This document shows positions 843 through 39,376 of a DNA stretch of 64,000 nt, one piece after another. The position numbers were made by a program, and so were the translations under genes. This DNA is from a virus. Position 1 is the stretch's first letter; every line of letters starts with the position of its first letter. The stretch lies in the IMG/VR virus record IMGVR_UViG_3300017991_000001, positions 1 through 64,000 of that record, one strand, 5' to 3'. Under the pieces are notes generated by a model that was not told the origin of the DNA, did no database searches, and worked only from the letters and a program-made list of their open reading frames with translations.

Positions 843-954
843 CATGCCCTCGAGCAATGAATTTCAGCGTCTAAATTACGCCTCAAAGCGCGTTACAATA
901 TACTACGCGTGACTGGCTTTCAGTCAGTTACTCTCCTGAACTACAACCTTCGGT

Positions 955-1060
955 AAATTCGCGTCAGGCCTGCGAGATACCCACCGCGCGCACAGGCGCG
1001 TTGGCAGGATAAGTGGCCGCGAAGGCATTGCCGTTACGCCGGAGCAATCTCCTGTACCTA
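955..1060 (+). ncRNA. Leader/tracrRNA-like element 1
   Basis: First of four copies of a conserved leader core (others begin near 4236, 5540 and 6165). The core starts AAATTCGCGTCAGGCCTGCG, contains a stem CGCGC/GCGCG with loop ACAG and continues with GTTGGCAGGATAAGTGGCC. Downstream, CTCCTGTAC (1049-1057) is the exact complement of GTACAGGAG inside the repeats of array 1, which starts 45 nt later. The order, structured 5' part, then 3' anti-repeat, then array, is that of type V tracrRNAs. Its UUCG-type hairpin is replaced by a weaker GGC-ATT-GCC element. Confidence 0.6.
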
Positions 1061-1102
1061 CTGAACGTTGTGTTCATTTTCTCAGTTGTCGCAAGACATA
1101 GG

Positions 1103-1253
1103 GGCGGCCCCACGCGTACAGGAGGGTTTGGAAACGGAGGCAGGACAGACATTGTGCCGATTCGGCGGCCCCACGCGTACAGGAGGGTTTGGTTCACCAC
1201 GGCCTGCCAGCCCGCGAAATGCGCGGCGGCCACACGCGTACAGGAGGCTTGTG
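1103..1253 (+). CRISPR. CRISPR-like array 1 (3 repeats, 2 spacers)
   Basis: Repeats of 29 nt start at 1103, 1164 and 1225; both spacers are 32 nt. The repeat begins GGCGGCCCCACGCG and ends AGGAGGGTTTGG; the third copy is degenerate. It shares the ACGCGTA centre and the TGG end with the other arrays but has its own GTACAGGAG segment, matched by the anti-repeat in leader 1. It is the shortest array and sits directly upstream of the effector gene. Confidence 0.85.
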
Positions 1254-1373: not shown

Positions 1374-3362
1374 ATGGACGAGAAAAGCGCGATGGAAGAA
1401 GTGGCCAGGTTGGCCGAGGCAAACGCGGTGCGCATGGAAAAAACGGCGCGTTCTCCGCGCATCCAAGTGATGGAGTTCCGGTTTCCGACGCCGGAGGACT
1501 GGGTGAAGGGCATGCGTTATTTCAAAGCCTATGGGGCCAATATGAAGTGGTTGTTCGCCCAGGCGTCGATGTGTCTCAACCTTGCCGGCATACCCGGGTT
1601 CACGCCCAAGAAGAACCTCAACGCAACGGTCGACATGGCCCTGGCCGACGCGTTCATGAAGTTGCTGGGCGGTGAGGTGGTGAACGGAGACGGAAACGGG
1701 GACGGTAAGAAACGCGGTGCGGCTCTGTATGCCTTGCGCAAGGCCTGGATGGACCGGCAGGACGAGCTAGAGAAGGCCGAGAACGTCGGCTTCCGTTTCC
1801 CTTCCTGCATATGGGACGAGGCACGGATCTTCGTGTGGGGCCACTTGAAAAGGAAGGACCCCCGCATGAAACGACGCCACTGCGACCTGTCGGCGGCGGG
1901 CGAGCGCAAGGACGTCAACTACAACACGGAACTGTCACGCATCGTACTGCAGGCGTACGAGTGCCAAACGACCAAACGTGTGAAGTTCGCTGAGGAAACC
2001 GATCCCGTCTCGGGCGAGAAGATGCTGGTAGCCTACCTGGGCATCGTGAAGGGCGTGAGCACGCGGGTCATCCTCGACGGTTGGTTCGAGCGGCTGGTCA
2101 GGAAGGAGGTGATCGAGAACGGCAAACGCGTGATGAAGGTCGTGCGCGAGCGGGACCGCTTTGAGATGGAGCCGCGAGCCAAGGGCGTCGTGGAGAATAT
2201 CCTCTCCGGTGAATACACGCTGCGTCGGGGCGAGTTCTACTTCCGCAAGCGCCGCAGCAAGGGCGGGCCCCGCAAGCTACGTCCCTTCCTGGATCTTTGT
2301 TACGACCCTCATGCCAAACGCACTGCCCGCCAGCTTAAGAAGGAGGAAGAGGAGGGCGAGACCACCAAGCGTGGCATGCGCTACGCGGCGCTGTTCTTCC
2401 ACAAGACGGACGGCGTGGGTAAGGACGAAGGGCTTGTTTATTTCCCCCACCTGTCAACCGACATCACGACAAGCAAGGAGAAGTTGGACAAGTACCGGTT
2501 CTATTCCCCGCCCGTGAACAACATGATGGGTGTACTGCACGATATCCGGGCGCGGCGCAACGCCGTCGTCCACCGCAAGCGTTCGGCGCTCGGGGTTCGC
2601 GAGTTCCGCACCGCCATCAAGAAGAAGGAGAAGTTGTACACGTTGCGGCGGGAGAAGTTCATCACGAAGAACATGAACATCATGGCGAACGACTTCGTGC
2701 GCTGCCTGCGAAGCTGGAACGTGGGCAACGTGATCATGCCGTGCGTGCCCAAGAACATCGAGGTGATGGGCGAGTCGTTCCCGTGGGCCGCGTTCGTCGA
2801 TATCATGCACACCAAGTGTGACGACGCGGACATCATCTTCCTGACCGGCGACGCGCACCTGGAAGCGCTGCAGGCTGCGGCCAACGAGGAGACCGCCGCC
2901 ATCAGGGCACGTGATGATCTGGAGGACGAGGAGAAGGAACGGGCCATCAAGGTCATCAAGGAACGCACCAAGGCCCACAAGGAAATGCTCTCCGGCAACA
3001 TCTCGGAGCGCGCGGACACGCTCATCGAAACCATTGAGAAGAAACTCGAGGAGCGGGGTATGCGCAAGGAGGAGGACGAGGAGTCCCTTCTCGAAGAGGA
3101 AAGCAAGAGCAAGAAGAAGAGGAAACCCCGCAAGCGCGTGAAGCCGGTGCGGAAGGTCATGGTCAAGACGAAGGACGATGACGGCAGGACTGTGAAAAAA
3201 GACGCCAGCAAACTCCGCACGAAGACGCGCAAGCGTGCGGACCCCAAGGCGAAGCACGAGAAGTGCTGGGCTCGCCACAGGGGAGGACAGCAGGGCGAAG
3301 TCGAAATGAAGGTTTTCGAGCAGGAAGAGGCTAAGAGGAAAGACAGGAAATCAGGAGGATAA
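1374..3362 (+). CDS. Candidate nuclease-dead Cas12/TnpB-like RNA-guided effector
   Basis: 662 aa from ATG 1374, chosen because AGGAGAGGA precedes it; the frame is open further upstream. N-terminal IQVMEFRFPTPEDW (about 30-43) resembles the first strand of Cas12/TnpB proteins. MRYAALFFHKTDG (335-347) sits where a RuvC-I strand is expected. A basic helical stretch (about 385-445) looks like a bridge helix, then VGNVIMPCV (450-458) resembles RuvC-II and FPWAAFVDIMHTKC (469-482) the conserved W..F....K helix. The RuvC-I Asp and RuvC-II Glu are not where expected (F/H and P). The C-terminus from 500 on is highly charged and lysine-rich, with DPKAKHEKCWARHRG (623-637) as a possible RuvC-III remnant. 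It lies between arrays 1 and 2 and overlaps no other gene. Binding without cleavage, as for Cas12m or TldR proteins, is inferred; the homology is by eye only. Confidence 0.5.
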   Translation: MDEKSAMEEVARLAEANAVRMEKTARSPRIQVMEFRFPTPEDWVKGMRYFKAYGANMKWLFAQASMCLNLAGIPGFTPKKNLNATVDMALADAFMKLLGGEVVNGDGNGDGKKRGAALYALRKAWMDRQDELEKAENVGFRFPSCIWDEARIFVWGHLKRKDPRMKRRHCDLSAAGERKDVNYNTELSRIVLQAYECQTTKRVKFAEETDPVSGEKMLVAYLGIVKGVSTRVILDGWFERLVRKEVIENGKRVMKVVRERDRFEMEPRAKGVVENILSGEYTLRRGEFYFRKRRSKGGPRKLRPFLDLCYDPHAKRTARQLKKEEEEGETTKRGMRYAALFFHKTDGVGKDEGLVYFPHLSTDITTSKEKLDKYRFYSPPVNNMMGVLHDIRARRNAVVHRKRSALGVREFRTAIKKKEKLYTLRREKFITKNMNIMANDFVRCLRSWNVGNVIMPCVPKNIEVMGESFPWAAFVDIMHTKCDDADIIFLTGDAHLEALQAAANEETAAIRARDDLEDEEKERAIKVIKERTKAHKEMLSGNISERADTLIETIEKKLEERGMRKEEDEESLLEEESKSKKKRKPRKRVKPVRKVMVKTKDDDGRTVKKDASKLRTKTRKRADPKAKHEKCWARHRGGQQGEVEMKVFEQEEAKRKDRKSGG

Positions 3363-3364
3363 CT

Positions 3365-4207
3365 GTGAACAAAATCAGACCCGCTGTCGTTCCACCCCCC
3401 GCGATCATGTACACCCCGACGGGGGCGGGATTGCCGGACACGCAGTTTAAGAGCGTACTAGCAGCCGTAAGCTCTGCGATCTGCGGAAGCTACAAGCGAC
3501 ACAAGAAGTTGGTGAGAGACACACTACACAAGCATGGACCGCTATTGAGCTGCATGGACCAGGAGCAGCGAGACACGCTGATGGAGTCCATCGAAGGGCA
3601 GGGCGTTACGTACAGGGAAGTGGATCGCGTACTTTCCTGCTACAGCGTGGTGCCTCGTTACATAGGCTTGGCGCCGGCACTGGTGGACAACAGCGCGGTA
3701 AGCGTGTTGTGGTGGAACAACCTTCCAAAGCGCGTCAAGCAGGACGCGTTGGCTGACAAGCTGGTACGCGTGAAGCGTGCCAACAGTTGGGTGCAGAAGA
3801 AGTTTTCGGACCTCACCCCGAAAGACGTGCGGCAGGTGTTCGATGTGGGTGACGGAAGCAAAGGGTACCTGCCCGTACGCACGCAGCATACTGCGCCGCG
3901 TGCCCGCAAAAGCGTGTACATGCAACCCGCGGGGCCGGTGTCGGTCAACGAGGACGACCCCAACAAGTTCCTCATCGAGGTCACCAGCAAAGGCAAGCGA
4001 GAAGTGGTGGCCATGTCCGAGCACGAGATGAAGTACACGCTCGGACAGGCGCGCGTGCTGACGGGAAGGAACGCGGTGGATTGGGACGCGGTCGAGAAGG
4101 AGCTGCGCGATTTAATCGCGACGTGGCGCGCGTCCAGGTCCAAGCATAAGGCCGTGTTGGCGACCTGCGCCGACGAAGTCGAGAAAATATTGGACGGCAA
4201 CGTGTAG
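3365..4207 (+). CDS. Effector-operon partner protein, unknown function
   Basis: 280 aa from GTG 3365. AGGAGG (3353-3358) overlaps the end of the effector gene, whose TAA stop is 2 bp upstream, so the two are co-translated. The protein is basic and mostly helical by composition. A region near VLWWNNLPKRVKQDALADKL could be a nucleic-acid-binding helical segment. I recognise no Cas1, Cas2, Cas4, Cas5, Cas6 or anti-CRISPR motif. Leader 2 begins 28 bp after its TAG stop. A role as processing factor, silencing partner or adaptor of the effector is inferred from position alone. Confidence 0.75.
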   Translation: MNKIRPAVVPPPAIMYTPTGAGLPDTQFKSVLAAVSSAICGSYKRHKKLVRDTLHKHGPLLSCMDQEQRDTLMESIEGQGVTYREVDRVLSCYSVVPRYIGLAPALVDNSAVSVLWWNNLPKRVKQDALADKLVRVKRANSWVQKKFSDLTPKDVRQVFDVGDGSKGYLPVRTQHTAPRARKSVYMQPAGPVSVNEDDPNKFLIEVTSKGKREVVAMSEHEMKYTLGQARVLTGRNAVDWDAVEKELRDLIATWRASRSKHKAVLATCADEVEKILDGNV

Positions 4208-4235
4208 CTGAACGAAGCAGCGGTACGATGTGCGG

Positions 4236-4345
4236 AAATTCGCGTCAGGCCTGCGAGATGTCCGCCGCGCACACTGAGTGCGTTGGCAGGGTAAGTGGCC
4301 GTGAAGGCGCTTCGGCGCCGGATACGTCTTCCCTACACATCCGCA
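4236..4345 (+). ncRNA. Leader/tracrRNA-like element 2
   Basis: Contains hairpin CGCAC/GTGCG (4268-4272/4278-4282) extended by GCC/GGC, then a perfect GGCGC-TTCG-GCGCC hairpin (4306-4319), then the anti-repeat TCTTCCCTA (4327-4335). The anti-repeat is the exact complement of TAGGGAAGA in array 2 repeats. The first repeat begins 49 nt later. CCTGC and GCAGG in the core can pair to enclose the first hairpin. Confidence 0.65.
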
Positions 4346-4384
4346 TGTCGTACCGCTACTCTGTTTCTAACCCTACATGTTGGT

Positions 4385-5474
4385 GTCGCACCCACGCGTA
4401 TAGGGAAGATTGGACCCAATTTTAGATACTCGCTGCAGCGCCGTCGTCGCACCCACGCGTATAGGGAAGATTGGAGAAACGATTTGACTAGGCATGCGGA
4501 GTCGTCGTCGCACCCACGCGTATAGGGAAGATTGGGCGCCCAGCGCGTCCGCCACGTGTTCGCGCTCGTCGCACCCACGCGTATAGGGAAGATTGGAAAG
4601 CTCCCTCGAAGGCGTCGCCCAACAGGCCGTCGCACCCACGCGTATAGGGAAGATTGGGCTTACGCCGGCAAGCTCGGCATTGAGGGCCTGTCGCACCCAC
4701 GCGTATAGGGAAGATTGGCAGCGGCTGGACCGGCGACTCGGTCTGCCCCAGTCGCACCCACGCGTATAGGGAAGATTGGCGTATCATGAACAGGTCGCAC
4801 CCACGCGTATAGGGAAGATTGGCGGCTCGAGGTGTTCGCTACAGGAGCGTCGCACCCGCGCGTATAGGGAAGATTGGGCACCCTTCCCGCGAGTCGCGTG
4901 CTGCAGCACGTCGCACCCACACGTATAGGGAAGATTGGTCCTCCCTCAGCGTTTCCTCCGCTTTGCAGTCGTTGCACCCACGCAGATAGGGAAGATTGGA
5001 AGGGCCAACCAAAGGCACTGCCGGTCGCCAAGTCGCACCCACGCGTATAGGGAAGATTGGTTTTGGAGGCGAGCAACGCGGCGACGGGCAGCGTCGCGCC
5101 CACGCGTATAGGGAAGATTGGCTAAAGGATGTTGATCTCCTGTCGCACCCACGCGTATAGGGAAGATTGGATCGATAGGCGTAATTCCGGTTCAGGTGCC
5201 GTGTCGCACCCACGCGTATAGGGAAGATTGGGCCCCCGATCCCGAAATCGAAAAGACGGACCCGTCGCACCCACGCGTATAGGGAAGATTGGGCTTCGAT
5301 GTTCTGTGTCGTAGCCTTGAGCGGGTCGCACCCGCGCGTATAGGGAAGATTGGGTCCTTTTCCCGGACCGCCACGGGTTCGGGCGGTCGCACCCACGCGT
5401 ATAAGGAAGATTGGCCGTCAAGAATCGCCCCAACACCGCGTGTGCGTCGCACCCACGCACACGAGGAGGGTTGG
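4385..5474 (+). CRISPR. CRISPR-like array 2 (19 repeats, 18 spacers)
   Basis: 29-nt repeats beginning GTCGCACCC and ending AGGGAAGATTGG recur mostly every 61 bp (4385, 4446, 4507, 4568, 4629, 4690, 4751, 4794, 4849, 4910, 4971, 5032, 5093, 5142, 5203, 5264, 5325, 5386, 5446). Most spacers are 32 nt; those after 4751, 4794 and 5093 are only 14, 26 and 20 nt. The last repeat is degenerate and ends AGGAGGGTTGG, like arrays 1 and 4. Repeat and spacer sizes are those typical of type I-E arrays, but no Cascade gene is visible. Confidence 0.95.
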
Positions 5475-5539
5475 GTCCTGGGTTCGTTGTCGCGCTTACG
5501 TGCTGGGAATGCATACAGACTACAGCGGTGGACACATGT

Positions 5540-5645
5540 AAATTCGCGTCAGGCCTGCGAGATGTCCGCCGCGCACACTGAGTGCGTTGGCAGGGTAAGT
5601 GGCCGTGAAGGTGCTTGCACCGGATACGTCTTCCCTACCATGTGT
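5540..5645 (+). ncRNA. Leader/tracrRNA-like element 3
   Basis: Nearly identical to leader 2 in its first 70 nt. The distal hairpin is GGTG-CTTG-CACC (5610-5621) instead of the UUCG hairpin, a paired change that keeps the stem. The anti-repeat TCTTCCCTA (5629-5637) pairs with GGGGAAGG in array 3 using G-U pairs at its ends, and perfectly with array 2-type repeats. Confidence 0.6.
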
Positions 5646-5680
5646 CATGCCGTTGTTCTCTTTATGGTCCATATGTTGGT

Positions 5681-6133
5681 GTCGCGCCCACGCGTATGGG
5701 GAAGGTTGGGCTTATGCACGCATCAGGGAGATCAGCGCACCGTCGCGCCCACGCGTATGGGGAAGGTTGGTCGTGGAGACGAGCAAAGCCGCGACGGGCG
5801 CCGTCGCGCCCACGCGTATGGGGAAGGTTGGTACGCCGAGTGCCTCGGACAACTGCGGGACAAGCCGCGCCTGCGCTTATAGGGAAGATTGGCCATCCCG
5901 CCTGGGGACAAATGGAGATTGCGTCGCGCCCACGCGTGTAGGGAAGGCTGGAAACTGTATGACCGTGTGGCGATCGGCCATGTATCGCGCCTACGCGTGT
6001 AGGGAAAGCTGGCTGCATCTGGCGTCAGATTTCATGCTGCGTAGGTAGGACCCACGCGTGTAGGGAAGGCTGGGCGCAGCTCGCCGTTATCGGAGCACGA
6101 AACCTGTTGAACCCACCCGCGTAAGAAGGCTGG
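5681..6133 (+). CRISPR. CRISPR-like array 3 (8 repeats, 7 spacers)
   Basis: Repeats start at 5681, 5742, 5803, 5864, 5923, 5984, 6045 and 6105. Early copies begin GTCGCGCCCACGCG and end GGGGAAGGTTGG; later copies drift to GTGTAGGGAAGGCTGG and the last is degenerate. Spacers are 32 nt except one of 30. The copy at 5864 carries the array 2-type ending. Spacer 2 (5771-5802) is related to a spacer of array 2. Confidence 0.9.
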
Positions 6134-6164
6134 ATCACCGAATAAATAGCAGTGCGGTATGTGG

Positions 6165-6275
6165 AGAATCGCGTCAGGCCTGCGAGATGTCCGCCGCGCG
6201 CACAGGCGCGTTGGCAGGATAAGTGGCCGTGAAGGCGCTTCGGCGCCGGATACGCTCTCCTCACACATACGTCCG
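6165..6275 (+). ncRNA. Leader/tracrRNA-like element 4
   Basis: Core with stem CGCGC/GCGCG (6197-6201/6206-6210) and a GGCGC-TTCG-GCGCC hairpin (6234-6247). The anti-repeat GCTCTCCTC (6254-6262) is the exact complement of GAGGAGAGC in the repeat at 6500 and pairs with one G-U in most other array 4 repeats (GAGGAGGGC). The first repeat begins 54 nt downstream. Confidence 0.65.
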
Positions 6276-6316
6276 CATGTCGTGCTGCTGGTTAATCCAT
6301 ACCTCTGTATCTTGGC

Positions 6317-6772
6317 GTCAAACCTACGTACGCGAGGAGGACTGGCTAACGCGCCCAGAATGAGAGAATACCATGATGTCAAACCCATGTACGCGAGGAG
6401 GACTGGACGTTCACCGTCGCTATCTAAAGCGCCTTGCGGTCAAACTCACGTACGCGAGGAGGGTTGGGCTACCCTCAGCTACCGGCGGACGAGGACACGG
6501 TCAAACCCACATACGCGAGGAGAGCTGGGCCCACCTAGGACGGGCGGGCGGATTGCAACCGTCAAACCCACGTACGCGAGGAGGGCTGGTGATAAGCGAG
6601 GAGAACTAAGACCGAGGCAAGGTCAAACCCACGTATGCGAGGAGGGCTGGGCTGGCGTGGATGATGGTCGTTACCAGGATACGTCAAACCCACGTATGTG
6701 AGGAGGGCTGGCCTCGGCATGAACTGCTGCCTGCGTACTCGGCGTCGAACCCACGTACGCGAGGAGGGTTGG
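6317..6772 (+). CRISPR. CRISPR-like array 4 (8 repeats, 7 spacers)
   Basis: Repeats start at 6317, 6378, 6439, 6500, 6561, 6622, 6683 and 6744, all spacers 32 nt. The repeat begins GTCAAACCCACGTACGCG and ends GAGGAGGGCTGG, with one or two changes per copy. It is the most diverged family from array 2 but keeps 29-nt length and the CTGG/TTGG end. Confidence 0.92.
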
Positions 6773-6858: not shown

Positions 6859-7551
6859 CTATTCGGTCATGTAACCCGCGTCCAGCATCATCTCCCGATA
6901 CATCTTCAGCGTGTGAGCGATCTGCTCTTCGTCCAGCACGTCCTCCCAGGCGCCGGGCTCGCCCTTCGTCTCGGAGATGTGCTTGCCCCTGAGCTGGGTC
7001 TTCATGTCAGCGGTGTCCTCATGCAGCGAGTCGGTGAAGGCCTTCACCGTGACGGGGTCGACCTCGTGGGCGATGCGCTTCACGTCTTCCGGCATGGGAG
7101 GCAGCCCGAGGTACTCGCGGATGCGGTCCACCGCGGCGGGGAGGTCGTTGTAGACGTCCTCGTACTTGAGCATCAGGATGGCGGGGTGCTTCTTCATATA
7201 GAAGTACTCGGTGCTCATCTTCTTCGGGTAGCGCAGGCGCTTCTTGTAGGGCGTGCGTCCGAACTTGGGCAGGCGCTGCAGCGAGGCCATCACGTCCAGC
7301 GGGTTGCGGTAGGTGTAGATGATGAAGGCCCGGCGGACGATGTCGAAGGGCGGCTCGTAGTGGTGGACCTTGACAACCCGCCAGCGCGTGCTGTTGAGCT
7401 GCTGGCGAAGCTCCTCGTCGACCTGGGCGGCCGAGGTGCCGGCGTAGTCGTAGGGGTGGCCCCGGGCTTCCAGGAGCTTCTGGACCGTCATGTAGGACAG
7501 GGTTGATCCGGTTCGATACATTCCGTTGCAGATAACGAACTGCTTGTGCAC
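6859..7551 (-). CDS. Sulfotransferase-like protein 1
   Basis: 230 aa from GTG 7551, which has an AGGTGG ribosome site; the longer frame upstream reads through the neighbour's coding region. GMYRTGSTL near the N-terminus matches the PAPS 5'-phosphosulfate loop, and YTYRNPLDVMAS the 3'-phosphate-binding strand of P-loop sulfotransferases. It is a paralogue of the gene directly upstream (GMYRSGSTL, FTYRNPLDIAAS) and overlaps its 3' end by 64 bp. Acceptor substrate unknown; a glycan or small molecule is likely. Confidence 0.8.
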   Translation of the reverse strand: MHKQFVICNGMYRTGSTLSYMTVQKLLEARGHPYDYAGTSAAQVDEELRQQLNSTRWRVVKVHHYEPPFDIVRRAFIIYTYRNPLDVMASLQRLPKFGRTPYKKRLRYPKKMSTEYFYMKKHPAILMLKYEDVYNDLPAAVDRIREYLGLPPMPEDVKRIAHEVDPVTVKAFTDSLHEDTADMKTQLRGKHISETKGEPGAWEDVLDEEQIAHTLKMYREMMLDAGYMTE

Positions 7552-8270
7552 GGTTCCACCTCTGGGATCTCGTACCCGGCGTGCTTCATCATCCGACCAC
7601 ACTGCGCCACGCATGCCCTTATGGTAGCGGCTGATAGGTGTTTACGCCAGGTGTCAGGTTTGCCCAAATCGTCGGAAATGTGGTGGTCGCGCACGTTTGT
7701 GATGTTCTTGATGGTGTCGTTGGGCATCGTGTCGGCGTGGGCCTTGACCACCTCAGCCGAGTGCCGGCGGGCGATCTCCCTGGCTTCGGGCAGCGTCACG
7801 TGCAGGTCCAGGAAGTTGGAGACCATGCAGACGACGCGGGGCACGTCCAGGATCATCTCCTCGTACTTGATCATCAGGCAGGGCTTCCAGTGCAGCTGGT
7901 CGAAGTAGTCATCCTCGTAACGGTCCCAGCCGTCGGGGATGTACTCGCCCCACTCGCCGGTCTGGGCCGTGCAGCGCTTCTGGGCGGAGGCGGCTATGTC
8001 CAGGGGGTTGCGGTAGGTGAACAGGAACCTGGCCTCCCTCATGACGTCGACCTGCCGGCCGCGCAGCACGTAGAAGTGCACCTTGGCCAGCATGGGAGGA
8101 GGCGTCGGGTAGGTGATCACGAAGCGGCCATAGCTGTCGCGGAGGCAGTACGGGGTGGACTCAATCAGCTCCACGTCGCCGAAGTTCAGCTCCAAGAGCT
8201 CACGTGCGATGTTGTAGACCAGCGTGGACCCCGAGCGGTACATCCCGTTGCAGACCACGAATCGACTCAC
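7488..8270 (-). CDS. Sulfotransferase-like protein 2
   Basis: 260 aa from GTG 8270, which overlaps the stop of the upstream lipoprotein gene in a GTGA junction. CNGMYRSGSTL is the PAPS-binding P-loop and FLFTYRNPLDIAAS the 3'-phosphate site. A conserved tail MMKHAGYE matches MMLDAGYM of sulfotransferase 1, so the pair arose by duplication. PAPS would come from the host. Confidence 0.8.
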   Translation of the reverse strand: MSRFVVCNGMYRSGSTLVYNIARELLELNFGDVELIESTPYCLRDSYGRFVITYPTPPPMLAKVHFYVLRGRQVDVMREARFLFTYRNPLDIAASAQKRCTAQTGEWGEYIPDGWDRYEDDYFDQLHWKPCLMIKYEEMILDVPRVVCMVSNFLDLHVTLPEAREIARRHSAEVVKAHADTMPNDTIKNITNVRDHHISDDLGKPDTWRKHLSAATIRACVAQCGRMMKHAGYEIPEVEPCTSSSLSATECIEPDQPCPT

Positions 8271-9073
8271 AGCGCCCCCCTCTCTGTTTTGCTCATCAAC
8301 TCCTTGGCCCGATCCGGTTCCATCTCGCCCATGGCGACCATGAGCAGGCGCGCGTAGTTCTTCTGCCGTTCGCTGGCGTTCTCGTAGGCCCTCTTGCCAA
8401 TATAGACGGTCACGCCGTAGACCAGCAAGCCCATGATCAGGATGACCCCGATCACCGTGATCACCGCCGACATGGGCCACATGTTGACGTCGCGCCCGGC
8501 GCGCATCTCGGTCTGGAGCGTGGTTTGCATCTTCGTGAGCTTGTTCGACAAGCCCACTTGCCCCGAGGCTGTGGCGTCTGCCTGTCCCGACATGTGGCCG
8601 ACCTTGGTGTTGATATCGGACAGCGCCTTCATCGTGTTGTCCAGCTTCGCCTCCATCTTGTTGGTGACGTTGACGTTGGCCTCGAACTTGGCGTTGATCG
8701 TGTTCTCCAGGCTCGCCATGGCTGTCATGGTATTGGTCAGCTTCGTGTCGATGTCGGCTTGCATCTTATTGTCGATCTTGGCCTCCAAGTTAATCAGGCC
8801 CTTTAGCGCCACCTCCATCTTCTGGAGCTGCGCCACGATGTGGCCGGAGAGCTGGTTGCTGTTGGAGGACATGTCGGCCCGCACGCGGGCGGCGGTGTCC
8901 TCCACGATCTTGTCCGTGTCCACCTTCTCCACCGCTATTTCCGGTGCCGGCATCGAAATCTCAGGTTTGTGGTCGATGATCGTCGGGGCCATCTTGGTCT
9001 TGTTGTCGGCGATGCAGCCGGTCAGCCATATCAACAAAATCAACAACGGCATCAATGACTTGAGCTTGGGCAT
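8267..9073 (-). CDS. Predicted lipoprotein with long coiled coil and C-terminal TM segment
   Basis: 268 aa; N-terminal hydrophobic segment LLILLIWLTGC is a lipobox signal. Residues about 50-170 are a regular K/N/T/M heptad-like coiled coil with repeated N-K-M/L units. A hydrophobic segment AVITVIGVILIMGLLVYGV lies near residue 205, followed by a basic tail. The topology (outer lipid anchor, coiled coil, membrane segment) recalls a spanin-like or envelope-spanning protein; no sequence family is recognised. GGGAGA precedes the ATG. Confidence 0.7.
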   Translation of the reverse strand: MPKLKSLMPLLILLIWLTGCIADNKTKMAPTIIDHKPEISMPAPEIAVEKVDTDKIVEDTAARVRADMSSNSNQLSGHIVAQLQKMEVALKGLINLEAKIDNKMQADIDTKLTNTMTAMASLENTINAKFEANVNVTNKMEAKLDNTMKALSDINTKVGHMSGQADATASGQVGLSNKLTKMQTTLQTEMRAGRDVNMWPMSAVITVIGVILIMGLLVYGVTVYIGKRAYENASERQKNYARLLMVAMGEMEPDRAKELMSKTERGAL

Positions 9074-9955: not shown

Positions 9956-11779
9956 TCAGTAGGGGTCGCGGAACGCGTTGGGGGGTTCGGCCAGGTTGAG
10001 CTGCTCCTCGGTCAGCTTGATGCCCTGGACCTCGGACAGGTCGGGGTACCGCCGCGTGTAGTGCCAGATGGCGCAGGAGCCGTAGTTGAGCGCGTGGGCG
10101 AAGTCGTCCGGCATCTTGGGTCGCCGTATGATGGTGTAGACATCCTGGCGCCGGGCGACCTCCTTGCGCTCCTCGATGAGGTTGAGCAGGTCGGAGGTGA
10201 TGTTCTTGCTGGACTCGTACTCCGGGAGCAGGATCTTGCAGGCCTTGACACACACGGCCTGCAGGACCAGCGAGCGGGGTTTGTCCAGCTGGTAATAGCC
10301 CCTGAGCTCCCCTTCCGCCGGTTTCTTGTACACGACCACGTCCCGTGTGGGCAGGTACATGTACATGAAGGGCACGATCCGGTCGAGGGGCAGCCCGGCC
10401 TGTATCATCAGGGTTTCGCGCACGCCGCCGGCCCCGCCGTAGTCATGCGCGAAGAACATGCAGCCCGCTTCCCGATAGAGGTCCAGCAGGCGCCGGGCCT
10501 CCCAGTCGTGGGCCGCCGCCAGGGGGAAGCGCTCGCAGAAGTGGCATTCCAGCCCGCCGCCGATGGGGTTGAGACCGACAAGTGCAACGGACGTAAAGGA
10601 GGTGCCCTCCTCCTGACCGCCGCCGCCCCAGTCCACGCCCATGGCACGGATGGGGCAGCGGCGGAACTTGTCGATCATCCTGTCGAACTCGTTGGGCCCC
10701 AGGCGCGAGGCGCGCTTGATGTCGGTGACGGTGGTCAGGTTGACGCCCACGTCGGCCGACTCGCCGAGGACCTCGTTGAGGAACCTCGACTCGTTGTACC
10801 CGAACTTGCCGTCCCGCTTGGCGATCAGCTCGCCCCACTTCTCCTCGTCGCGGTAGTGCGAGGGGACGATGGGCTGCGGGACGTGGAAGCCCCAGAAGTC
10901 GGCGTGCTCGTCGGCGTCGGTGTGGTACCAGTGGCCGTTGGCGGCGTCGATGAGGTTCTTGCATTTGGCGCAGCACAGGCCCTTGCGCTCGATCATCTTC
11001 ATGAGGTCGGCCTGGAAGCAGGCCATGTTCCAGTAGCCGCAGTGGGTGCATTTGGTGACCCATTCGGCCTTGGAGGAGTCCTGCCACAGCGCCTCGATGG
11101 TGTTGTCGAGCGTCTTGGGCGTGCCGGAGTAGGAGGAGGCGCGGATCTTGGAATACGACATGCACTCCCGGATGATCGGGATGAAGTCGTAGTCCATGTC
11201 CTGGATCTCGTCGTGGTCGATGATGTCGCAGGCGATGCCGCGGATGCGGTCGCAGTCCAACAGCGCGAAGGAGAAGAACAGCATGCTCCCGTTCGCGAAG
11301 GACCGCTGCAGCACCGCGTTGGTGGCCGAGGTGTCGACCAGGAACCTGGAGATCGGGCTGTTCTTGATGAACGGCCGGACGTAGTTGTTGGAGAGGCGCC
11401 GGATCTGTTCGTATCGGGGGGTCACGAGCAGGGTCCGCAGGTAGGGGTGGCCGGCCGAACGCATGACGCAATTCGCCGAGAGCGTCGCGCTTTTGCCCAC
11501 CTGCCGCGCGCACTTGAGCAGCATGCGCCTGGGGATGCCCACCTTGAAGACCGGCTCCATGAAGAAGTGGTTCTCAAGGGTGTAGGGGCGCCCGTCCAGG
11601 GAGAGCAGGCCCAGCACGGGTACCAGCGTGTCGGGGTTGCGGTTACGCAGGATGTGCATCACCTGCATCACGTCGGCGAGCGAGACCTGCTCGCCGCTTT
11701 GGAAGGTATCGATGACGTTTTGTACGGACTCGGGCAGCTGGGTCTCTACCGACTCGGCAAGTGAGGAGGCTGTATCCAT
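9956..11779 (-). CDS. Terminase large subunit
   Basis: 607 aa if it starts at ATG 11779; the frame continues upstream but is then low-complexity S/R-rich and probably not coding. Packages DNA into proheads and cuts the concatemer. The ATPase has an ARQVGKS Walker A (about 91-97) and CDIIDHDE Walker B (184-191). A Cys4 cluster (CTHC...CAKC, 244-272) is inserted before the nuclease, which begins near GVDWGGGG (381-388), the first acidic residue of the RNase H fold. The start is uncertain because it overlaps a small plus-strand gene with a good ribosome site. Confidence 0.9.
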   Translation of the reverse strand: MDTASSLAESVETQLPESVQNVIDTFQSGEQVSLADVMQVMHILRNRNPDTLVPVLGLLSLDGRPYTLENHFFMEPVFKVGIPRRMLLKCARQVGKSATLSANCVMRSAGHPYLRTLLVTPRYEQIRRLSNNYVRPFIKNSPISRFLVDTSATNAVLQRSFANGSMLFFSFALLDCDRIRGIACDIIDHDEIQDMDYDFIPIIRECMSYSKIRASSYSGTPKTLDNTIEALWQDSSKAEWVTKCTHCGYWNMACFQADLMKMIERKGLCCAKCKNLIDAANGHWYHTDADEHADFWGFHVPQPIVPSHYRDEEKWGELIAKRDGKFGYNESRFLNEVLGESADVGVNLTTVTDIKRASRLGPNEFDRMIDKFRRCPIRAMGVDWGGGGQEEGTSFTSVALVGLNPIGGGLECHFCERFPLAAAHDWEARRLLDLYREAGCMFFAHDYGGAGGVRETLMIQAGLPLDRIVPFMYMYLPTRDVVVYKKPAEGELRGYYQLDKPRSLVLQAVCVKACKILLPEYESSKNITSDLLNLIEERKEVARRQDVYTIIRRPKMPDDFAHALNYGSCAIWHYTRRYPDLSEVQGIKLTEEQLNLAEPPNAFRDPY

Positions 11780-11912
11780 GAAGAAGTTGATCCAAGCGCT
11801 GGAATGGCTCGTTGACTCCCTGGTGTCGACCTTTGTCGACCTGATCGAGCTGCTTGGAAAGTCCCTCTGCAAGAAACTGATCAAGGAGCTGGGTCTGACC
11901 CTGCTCGTCTGA
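11778..11912 (+). CDS. Small hydrophobic/amphipathic protein antisense to terminase 5' end
   Basis: 44 aa; AGGAGG lies 9 bp before ATG. Alternating leucine-rich and charged residues (MKKLIQALEWLVDSL, then LIELLGKSL) suggest an amphipathic or membrane-associated helix. It starts within 2 bp of the assigned terminase start on the other strand, so one of the two starts may be wrong. Confidence 0.5.
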   Translation: MKKLIQALEWLVDSLVSTFVDLIELLGKSLCKKLIKELGLTLLV

Positions 11913-11931
11913 TACGATGGTACCGTGCCGG

Positions 11932-11960
11932 TTGACAATCCGGCGTCGCGAAGTTATTGA
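11932..11960 (+). promoter_or_regulatory. Sigma70-like promoter candidate
   Basis: TTGACA (11932-11937), 17 bp, TATTGA (11955-11960). The -35 is perfect, the -10 is weak. It precedes the long plus-strand operon starting at 11979. Confidence 0.45.
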
Positions 11961-37464: not shown

Positions 37465-37983
37465 ATGGAAGTGGTCGCAACGATACGGTTCACGACGCCC
37501 TGCCTCGGAAACATCCGCGGTGACGGGCCGAACCGGATGCTCCGAAACGCCGAGGGCAAGGTCATTCTTCTGCAGACCTGGTGGCGCTCGGGCTTGGGGT
37601 TTGCCGCCCAGGCACTGTGCCGATACCAGAAAGAGGTATCCGAGGTCCAGACCGACCCTGTCGTCGATGGCGAGCTGAGCGTTTACCGGCGGTATTGGGC
37701 ACCTGACAAGTACACGGAGCACGAGGCGTTCGACGCCGGCAGCGAGCTCCGGGTGCGTTTCATGCTGCCCCGCAAGATGGACGTGAAAGGATTCCAGGAG
37801 CTGCTCGAGATGTCGGGACGATACGTGGGAATATCGCCGCATGGTTATCGACAGGACTTCGGGCGTTTTTCCGTGGTGAGCGTGGATGTAACCAAAGCGA
37901 GGAGAGCGAGAGCGCGTGGCAGAAGAAAGGAACAACAAGGCCCTGATACGGAGGTGCGGATTCCACATCCAGGTCATCCCTGA
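37465..37983 (+). CDS. Hypothetical protein
   Basis: 172 aa. Beta strands in the N-half and RVRFMLPRKMDVKGFQELLEM in the C-half. The last 22 residues overlap the helicase start by 68 bp. Unknown. Confidence 0.6.
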   Translation: MEVVATIRFTTPCLGNIRGDGPNRMLRNAEGKVILLQTWWRSGLGFAAQALCRYQKEVSEVQTDPVVDGELSVYRRYWAPDKYTEHEAFDAGSELRVRFMLPRKMDVKGFQELLEMSGRYVGISPHGYRQDFGRFSVVSVDVTKARRARARGRRKEQQGPDTEVRIPHPGHP

Positions 37984-39376
37984 CTATGCGATGTACCTGG
38001 CGGGGCCTTTGACATACAAGCGCAGGATCGTGAAGGGTGCTTCGTCAAAGAACGCGGAGTACCGCACGATCGAGTGCTTCAAGCTGCACACGGGGAGCAT
38101 GCTGGTGCCCGCGGGTCTGACCCAGCGGGTGGTCAAGGTGCTCCGCTCCAGCGGCCTTGAAGTTTCGTTCCAGGACCTGAGGTCACAGGTGCTCCCGGAG
38201 CCGGTCCTGGACACCCTGCCCCCGCTCAGGCCGGGGCAGGACGAGCTGCTGGCCAGCATCGTCGCTTCGGACCACGGCGTCATCGAGGGCCCCACCGGTA
38301 GCGGCAAAAGCTGGATCATCCGCCAGATATGCAGGATGTGGCCGACGGCCAACGTCATCATCTGCATTCCCGCCGCCGTGGGCGGGTCGCTGTTGGAGCA
38401 AACGTACAAGGACCTGTTGGAGGACCTTCCCGAAGACAAGGTCGGGATGGTTGGTCTGGCGCGTTGCGACAACAAGCAGGTCACGTGCGTGATGGACCGC
38501 TCGCTGCACAGAGCCAACCTGGAGCAGTGTCAGATATTCATATTTGACGAGGTCCATCACGCCGCGGCCCCGAAGACCGCCGAAGCGCTGGGCAAGGTTT
38601 GGGAGGCCAGGAGGTTTGGCTTCTCCGCTTCTCCCGTGGGGCGCAGCGACCTGGCCGACCTCGAGACCGAGGCCATGTTCGGCCCGGTGATCCACCGCAG
38701 CACCTACCAGGACATCCAGAAGACGGGCGCGATCGTGCCCATAGAGGTGCTGGTCTTCTCCATGTGCATGGCGCGCAAGACGGTGGCCAGCACCGACACG
38801 GCCAGGGAGCGCCACGGCATTTGGCGCAACCAGGACCGCAACGGCCTGATCGCGGCGGCCATCCAGTGGGTGCGCAGGACGTACGGGGTGGACATGCAGA
38901 TCCTGATCTCCGTGAAGACCGTGGAGCACGCCGTCTACCTCAACGCCCACCTGCCCGACTTCACCCTCGTCTACGGCGACATGCAGCCCAAGAAGCGCGA
39001 GCGCTGGGAGCGTGCGGGCTTGCTCATACCGGGCGAACACCCCATCACATCGGGGGAGCGGGCGACCCTGCAGGATGACTTTCGCGACGGCAAACTGAAG
39101 CGCGCCATCGCCACCCAGATATGGGGCACGGGCGTGGATTTCCCGGGCCTGGAAGTGCTTGTGCGCGCGGACGCGCAGTCCTCTTCCATACGCAATACGC
39201 AGCTTCCCGGAAGGGTGACAAGAAAGGCCGAGGGCAAGGATTTCGGGCTGGTCATCGACTTCGATGACTGCCATAATGAAGCGCTTCAGCGCCGTGCGCG
39301 GAAGCGTCTTTCCATCTACAGGAAGAAGGGATGGAAAATCACCCACGTAGATCTGATGAACCAGACAGCGCCTTGA
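37916..39376 (+). CDS. SF2 DNA helicase, UvsW-like
   Basis: 486 aa from GTG 37916. Motif I GPTGSGKS (about 125-132), motif II DEVH (about 211-214), motif III FSASP, motif V GTGVDFPGLE and motif VI LPGRVTRK. The N-terminal 100 residues are a small accessory domain. UvsW-type helicases unwind branched recombination and R-loop intermediates and switch replication from origin- to recombination-dependent mode. Confidence 0.9.
   Translation: MAEERNNKALIRRCGFHIQVIPDYAMYLAGPLTYKRRIVKGASSKNAEYRTIECFKLHTGSMLVPAGLTQRVVKVLRSSGLEVSFQDLRSQVLPEPVLDTLPPLRPGQDELLASIVASDHGVIEGPTGSGKSWIIRQICRMWPTANVIICIPAAVGGSLLEQTYKDLLEDLPEDKVGMVGLARCDNKQVTCVMDRSLHRANLEQCQIFIFDEVHHAAAPKTAEALGKVWEARRFGFSASPVGRSDLADLETEAMFGPVIHRSTYQDIQKTGAIVPIEVLVFSMCMARKTVASTDTARERHGIWRNQDRNGLIAAAIQWVRRTYGVDMQILISVKTVEHAVYLNAHLPDFTLVYGDMQPKKRERWERAGLLIPGEHPITSGERATLQDDFRDGKLKRAIATQIWGTGVDFPGLEVLVRADAQSSSIRNTQLPGRVTRKAEGKDFGLVIDFDDCHNEALQRRARKRLSIYRKKGWKITHVDLMNQTAP

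Follow-up and report, generated by a model that had tools for sequence, protein, structure and literature searches.

The window analysed here, positions 1 to 64,000 of the 211,084-base virus record IMGVR_UViG_3300017991_000001, contains four arrays resembling clustered regularly interspaced short palindromic repeats (CRISPR). Each array is preceded by a leader, a folded RNA element with a tail that has changed along with the repeats of the array. The name "leader" appears too weak, as the elements look like trans-activating CRISPR RNAs (tracrRNAs). Most likely they are tracrRNA-like RNAs, one dedicated to each array, that belong to a type V-like (TnpB/Cas12-related) CRISPR system encoded by the phage.

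Architecture of the arrays and leader elements

The four arrays are built from 29-nucleotide (nt) repeats and mostly 32-nt spacers, and total 38 repeats and 34 spacers. A minority of spacers measure 14, 20, 26, 30, 31 or 33 nt. This anatomy, observed directly, is that of a CRISPR array, with repeats of about 25–36 nt and unique spacers of similar length. All arrays and leaders lie on the plus strand. Array 1 (1103..1253) has three repeats (GGCGGCCCCACGCGTACAGGAGGGTTTGG), the third degenerate, and two spacers of 32 nt. Array 2 (4385..5474) is composed of 19 repeats (GTCGCACCCACGCGTATAGGGAAGATTGG) and 18 spacers; its repeats 1–8 are perfect, while its far end is decayed and the final repeat carries seven mismatches. 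Array 3 (5681..6135) contains seven repeats and, at about 6107, an eighth that is degenerate; array 4 (6317..6772) contains eight repeats (consensus GTCAAACCCACGTACGCGAGGAGGGCTGG) and seven spacers of 32 nt. Perfect repeats thus occupy the leader end and degenerate ones the far end, a polarity typical of CRISPR arrays that grow at the leader end.

The layout is the same in all four cassettes: the leader core is followed by a distal hairpin, an anti-repeat, the 3′ arm of an outer closing helix (P0), 24–27 nt, and the first repeat. Element 1 (937..1076) is sequentially composed of a P0 5′ arm (937–955), a core (955–1040), an anti-repeat (1048–1057) and a P0 3′ arm (1059–1076). In element 2 (4219..4357), P0 pairs 4219–4236 with 4340–4357 in 18 uninterrupted base pairs (bp), and the anti-repeat spans 4326–4338. 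P0 of element 3 (5522..5656) pairs 5522–5538 with 5639–5656 as two helices of about 8 bp around a small internal loop, with the anti-repeat at 5628–5638. P0 of element 4 (6148..6289) pairs 6148–6165 with 6272–6289 over 18–19 bp including G-U pairs, and the anti-repeat spans 6254–6262.

Two minor features concern the array sequences. TTGG(T/C) immediately precedes the first repeat of arrays 2–4 (before 4385, 5681 and 6317) and also that of a related virus contig, L018; it mirrors the 3′ end of the repeat itself. The last repeat of array 2 (5446–5474) resembles array 4 in its 3′ half (ACACGAGGAGGGTTGG), which suggests recombination between arrays or a shared ancestor.

Pairing between anti-repeat and repeat

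Just inside the P0 3′ arm, each of the four leaders holds an anti-repeat of 9–13 nt complementary to positions 14–26, in the 3′ half, of its own array's repeat. The anti-repeat and repeat sequences are CTCCTGTAC and GTACAGGAG in cassette 1, TCTTCCCTA and TAGGGAAGA in cassette 2, CTTCCCTAC and GTAGGGAAG in cassette 3, and GCTCTCCTC and GAGGAGGGC in cassette 4. For element 1, the anti-repeat TCTCCTGTAC stands opposite GTACAGGAGG of repeat 1. An anti-repeat complementary to the repeat and encoded near the array characterizes a tracrRNA, and all four cassettes have one. In the dual guides of type V (Cas12) systems, as opposed to Cas9, the pairing likewise involves the 3′ half of the repeat and the spacer lies downstream.

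The pairing and its covariation are seen directly in the alignment. In the helix formed in trans, 83% of the cells are paired and 8 of the 13 pairs show double-sided changes, a count reached by none of 500 shuffles; this holds in a register selected for its fit, in which leader 1 has to be shifted by 2 nt. Sliding the two sides against each other by 1–3 columns leaves at most two double-sided pairs. Three anti-repeat types across the four arrays thus track the repeats.

The elements might instead work in cis, as structured CRISPR leaders or as signals for processing. Pairing of the anti-repeat with the first repeat of its own transcript would then set processing or spacer insertion, and no tracr–guide complex would form. 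Each array has one element, the distance of 24–27 nt from P0 to the first repeat is constant, and the best-preserved repeats lie at the leader end, all of which suit such a role. However, covariation links the anti-repeat to the repeat itself, a sequence common to all units, and a conserved core of 100 nt with several hairpins exceeds what a cis pairing signal needs. A search of the 211-kb record for the adaptation gene Cas1 (PF01867) also gave no match, and the locus accordingly shows no adaptation module. Action in cis is considered quite improbable.

The outer closing helix P0

Folding the leaders together with their flanks places a helix of 15–19 bp, P0, around each of them. The P0 sequence varies among leaders, yet standard pairs fill 69 of the 72 cells, and each of the 18 columns includes one or more double-sided changes. 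These counts refer to arms registered by hand, since MAFFT could not align them; a bulged base was omitted from leader 1 and one N was added to leader 3. The cognate arms pair with better energy than 1000 shuffles in each leader (p<0.001). A longest-run test is significant in leaders 2 and 4 over 18–19 positions (p<0.001) and fails in leaders 1 and 3 (p 0.70 and 0.38) because of the small loops in their helices. The minimum-energy fold of leader 4 has P0 in a partly different register. Leaders 2 and 4 can exchange their arms and still pair (68 of 72 cells), but leaders 1 and 3 cannot. The G-U pairs in P0 argue for an RNA structure over a DNA inverted repeat.

The leader core

The sequence-only reading had pointed to compensatory changes in the leader core, between positions 4236 and 6247, as the sign of a conserved RNA structure. 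The sequences it described are present: the apical stem reads CGCAC-ACTGA-GTGCG in leaders 2 and 3 and CGCGC-ACAG-GCGCG in leaders 1 and 4, and the distal hairpin reads GGCGC-TTCG-GCGCC in leaders 2 and 4 and GGTG-CTTG-CACC in leader 3. The differing apical and distal stems stay paired, so the paired changes do keep the helices. Leader 1 (955–1059) falls outside that interval, and its distal hairpin differs (GGCATTGCC...).

Each of these changes amounts to a single compensatory pair, G-C to A-U at A3 column 36/44 and C-G to U-A at column 73/85. Two such pairs were observed among the four sequences against a shuffle mean of 1.6, and 274 of 500 shuffles scored as high; the pairs disappear when the partners are slid by 1–3 columns. 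Cores folded alone are as stable as their shuffles (z −0.5 to +0.2), while leaders 1–4 folded with their flanks reach z values of −2.4, −3.7, −2.1 and −1.6. Since shuffles attain two pairs and the core folds are no more stable than shuffles, the core changes alone are no proof of structure. A conserved RNA structure is nevertheless very likely real, as judged from P0 and the anti-repeat covariation, two stronger features absent from that reading, and it is the cited core changes that fail to establish it.

Similarity inherited from a recent duplication, with the apparent structure as a by-product, would account for core folds and core covariation no better than those of shuffles, and over 77 nt leaders 2 and 3 share 99% identity. 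Where the sequences truly differ, however, P0 and the anti-repeat helix keep pairing far beyond the controls, and an explanation by duplication alone is very improbable.

Candidate effector genes

Two orphan genes on the plus strand form an operon between arrays 1 and 2. The first open reading frame (ORF), ORF662 (1374..3362), encodes 662 amino acids (aa) from an ATG at 1374 that follows AGGAGAGG. The second, ORF280 (3365..4207), encodes 280 aa from a GTG start that follows AGGAGG, 2 bases past the ORF662 stop. Both have a coding-like GC content by codon position. ORF662 has no match in Pfam, PADLOC, NCBIfam, PHROGs, PDB, phages, plasmids, IMG/VR or GTDB contigs, and no homologue of ORF280 was found in searches that included IMG/VR, GTDB contigs, phages and plasmids.

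By position only, ORF662 and ORF280 are the sole candidates for an effector and its partner protein, and on that ground the effector is probably ORF662, with ORF280. Tentatively, ORF662, with ORF280, could be a guide-RNA effector of a new class 2 type, either too diverged from Cas12/TnpB or not derived from them, that serves several paralogous tracrRNA–array cassettes. If the orphan gene is the effector, the phage carries a compact, unrecognised RNA-guided protein.

An identity of ORF662 with Cas12 was considered and rejected. By eye, residues 380–500 resemble the stretch of TnpB from RuvC-II to RuvC-III minus the zinc finger, a likeness not accepted as evidence. Structure models are of low confidence, with a predicted local distance difference test (pLDDT) score of 37 for ORF662; a partial model shows its helices and strands in matching order, and AsCas12f appears among the sub-threshold fold matches (E 5.1), which was likewise not accepted. 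The hhalign comparison of ORF662 with TnpB scores like shuffled sequence, and the region profile gives −0.2 bits, equalled by 73 of 300 shuffles. A type V CRISPR-Cas locus includes a Cas12/TnpB effector with a RuvC domain; as none was found here, the system is named type V-like and not type V.

Related viral loci

Among other IMG/VR contigs, only two have the repeat motif CCCACGYRYRYRNGRRRGNNTGG in tandem, and four have it in a relaxed form. A TnpB-family gene lies beside the array in three of these four related viral contigs. The proteins of L015 (447 aa) and L021 (399 aa) have intact RuvC residues. In L018, a virus contig of 120.9 kb whose array has a period of 61 nt, the TnpB-family gene (L018:3259-4545, minus strand) encodes 428 aa, and in the alignment the first RuvC aspartate is replaced by H and the third by E. 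The sequence makes this protein a candidate natural inactive phage effector, and such an inactive relative makes silencing, rather than cutting, plausible for the effector of the window system. In the fourth contig, L020, the array sits at the contig end, and any neighbouring gene would fall outside the contig. The repeats of the window are therefore of the same family as arrays adjoining TnpB/Cas12 genes, a feature that supports the type V-like assignment without defining it.

No leader-like RNA was found in the related viral contigs. The L018 repeat self-folds well (z −2.6), whereas the window repeats do not, and in the window system dependence on a tracr RNA may have replaced self-folding of the repeat.

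Among GTDB genome contigs, the tandem motif gave only one weak match of two repeats (L022). These two similar-motif repeats (L022:1346-1464) lie in a Proteobacteria metagenome-assembled genome, where open frames on both strands overlap them. No TnpB was seen nearby, and the match may be due to chance.

Proposed function

Each cassette runs from the P0 5′ arm through a folded core (P1, P2 and apical P3), the distal hairpin P4, the anti-repeat of 9–13 nt, the P0 3′ arm and 24–27 nt to the repeat–spacer units. In the proposed model, transcription would cross the RNA element and the array in one direction, perhaps as a single unit. Pairing of the anti-repeat with repeat positions 14–26, which adjoin the 3′ spacer, would create a dual guide, and the core would present this guide to the effector. 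P0 could define the ends of the RNA or be a site at which a double-strand-specific RNase processes it. Once expressed and processed, the guide would be bound by the effector and directed to target DNA. The cassette was probably duplicated inside the phage, and anti-repeat and repeat afterwards changed together.

Several findings weigh against a tracrRNA-like role in a type V-like system. Covariation is based on four paralogues of a single genome, not on independent lineages, as searches of IMG/VR, GTDB contigs, phages and plasmids yielded no homologue of the leader core. In the related viral loci, no convincing anti-repeat was seen. Leaders 2 and 3 have a common anti-repeat. Tails 1, 3 and 4 pair best with their own repeats, but tail 2 prefers repeat 3b (−24.7 kcal/mol, against −17.0 kcal/mol with repeat 2), and the matching is not fully private. 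The sum of the cognate energies ranks second of 24 permutations, since tails 2 and 3 are nearly identical and both favour repeat 3b. Compared one by one with shuffles, the tails are only moderately extreme (p 0.05, 0.04, 0.008 and 0.02). TnpB/Cas12 families (PF07282, PF01385) have no match in the 211-kb record, and ORF662 shows no detectable relation to TnpB/Cas12 by BLASTP, hhalign or region profile. Finally, no protospacers were found in the phage's own genome, in the related phage record G003 or in GenBank phages.

A phage that provides tracr-like RNAs and arrays but no effector might borrow or jam a type V effector of its host. Neither the Cas12/TnpB families nor Cas1 were found in the 211-kb record, and there are precedents. 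Such an action on Cas9 has been proposed for a phage-encoded tracrRNA whose anti-repeat matches host repeats perfectly. A phage Cas9 is accompanied by a tracrRNA that matches host repeats (PMC10910872), and phage arrays without cas genes are represented by cyanophage N1, as cited in PMC6293099. Nevertheless, four paralogous cassettes with two uncharacterised genes between them resemble a self-contained locus, and in GTDB bacteria the tandem motif is limited to the weak L022 match within overlapping frames. Dependence on a host effector is considered unlikely, and a system of phage-encoded tracrRNA-like RNAs, each tied to its own array, is preferred.

Comparison with known systems

The type V-U2 locus of cyanophage vB_AphaS-CL131 (PMC6293099) is likewise a compact locus without adaptation genes in a phage genome, and its TnpB-type context is matched in the relatives L015, L018 and L021. 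CL131 has one array with 36-nt repeats, its TnpB is identifiable and it lacks a tracrRNA, whereas the window has four arrays with 29-nt repeats, a tracr-like RNA for each array and no identifiable TnpB. Subtype V-M comprises Cas12m, nuclease-inactive DNA-binding effectors (PMC11013384). In the L018 effector H replaces the first RuvC aspartate, as in the H-D-D set of Cas12m, and short repeats with two stems are a further likeness. Unlike the window system with its anti-repeats, Cas12m uses no tracrRNA, and its effectors of about 600 aa have a recognisable RuvC, which ORF662 does not.

The phage Cas9 II-C2 systems (PMC10910872, PMC12669027) also encode a tracrRNA with an anti-repeat. Their locus, however, has Cas9 and no array and pairs with host repeats, whereas the RNA of the window pairs with the phage's own arrays. 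TIGR-Tas loci share the presence of interspaced guide arrays in phage genomes, but have alternating repeats of 8–12 nt, 9-nt spacers and Nop-domain proteins (PMC12045711). The array geometry of the window, with 29-nt repeats and 32-nt spacers, rules out a TIGR-Tas identity as defined there.

Type V-like CRISPR in phages is of a known kind, and what is new is the presence of four paralogous tracr–array cassettes with no recognisable effector. Co-changing anti-repeats and repeats across four cassettes of one genome are a natural record of a tracrRNA tracking its repeat. Together with related virus loci that have TnpB-type effectors and no visible tracrRNA, the set may show a tracrRNA arising or splitting off in TnpB-derived CRISPR systems.

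Spacers

By analogy with other phage CRISPR loci, the spacers could target competing phages, plasmids or host defence genes. Self-targeting and targeting of G003 were rejected, as matches were no more frequent than expected by chance. A spacer of array 2 (5061–5092) and one of array 3 (5771–5802) are identical at 25 of 32 positions; either related protospacers were acquired separately or one spacer diverged after duplication. This pair has no IMG/VR match. Array 2 also includes short spacers at 4780–4793 (14 nt), 4823–4848 (26 nt) and 5122–5141 (20 nt).

Genomic context

The window is the start of its record and encodes a GpA-type terminase (9956–11938). The related phage record G003 (207,857 bases) has a terminase of 48% identity and a largely colinear genome. 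Its terminase (37483–39303) lies about 0.7 kb from the gene matching positions 204063–206726 of the present record, in which the same two genes are roughly 14 kb apart when counted across the contig ends. The CRISPR region falls within this extra segment, and a search of G003 found none of such arrays. As both the segment and the arrays are missing from G003, the CRISPR locus is an accessory portion of a genuine phage genome. Among Rfam families, only a tRNA was detected in the window.

A sulfotransferase gene (Pfam match at 6862–7614) and its neighbouring ORF, alike by eye, occupy 6859–8480 on the minus strand; they adjoin the CRISPR locus within the segment absent from G003. Collagen-like repeat genes with tandem GTGACCGGC-type units, likely encoding tail fibres, are located at 124.8–125.8 kb and 207–210 kb of G000, next to the CRISPR insertion when the contig ends are joined.
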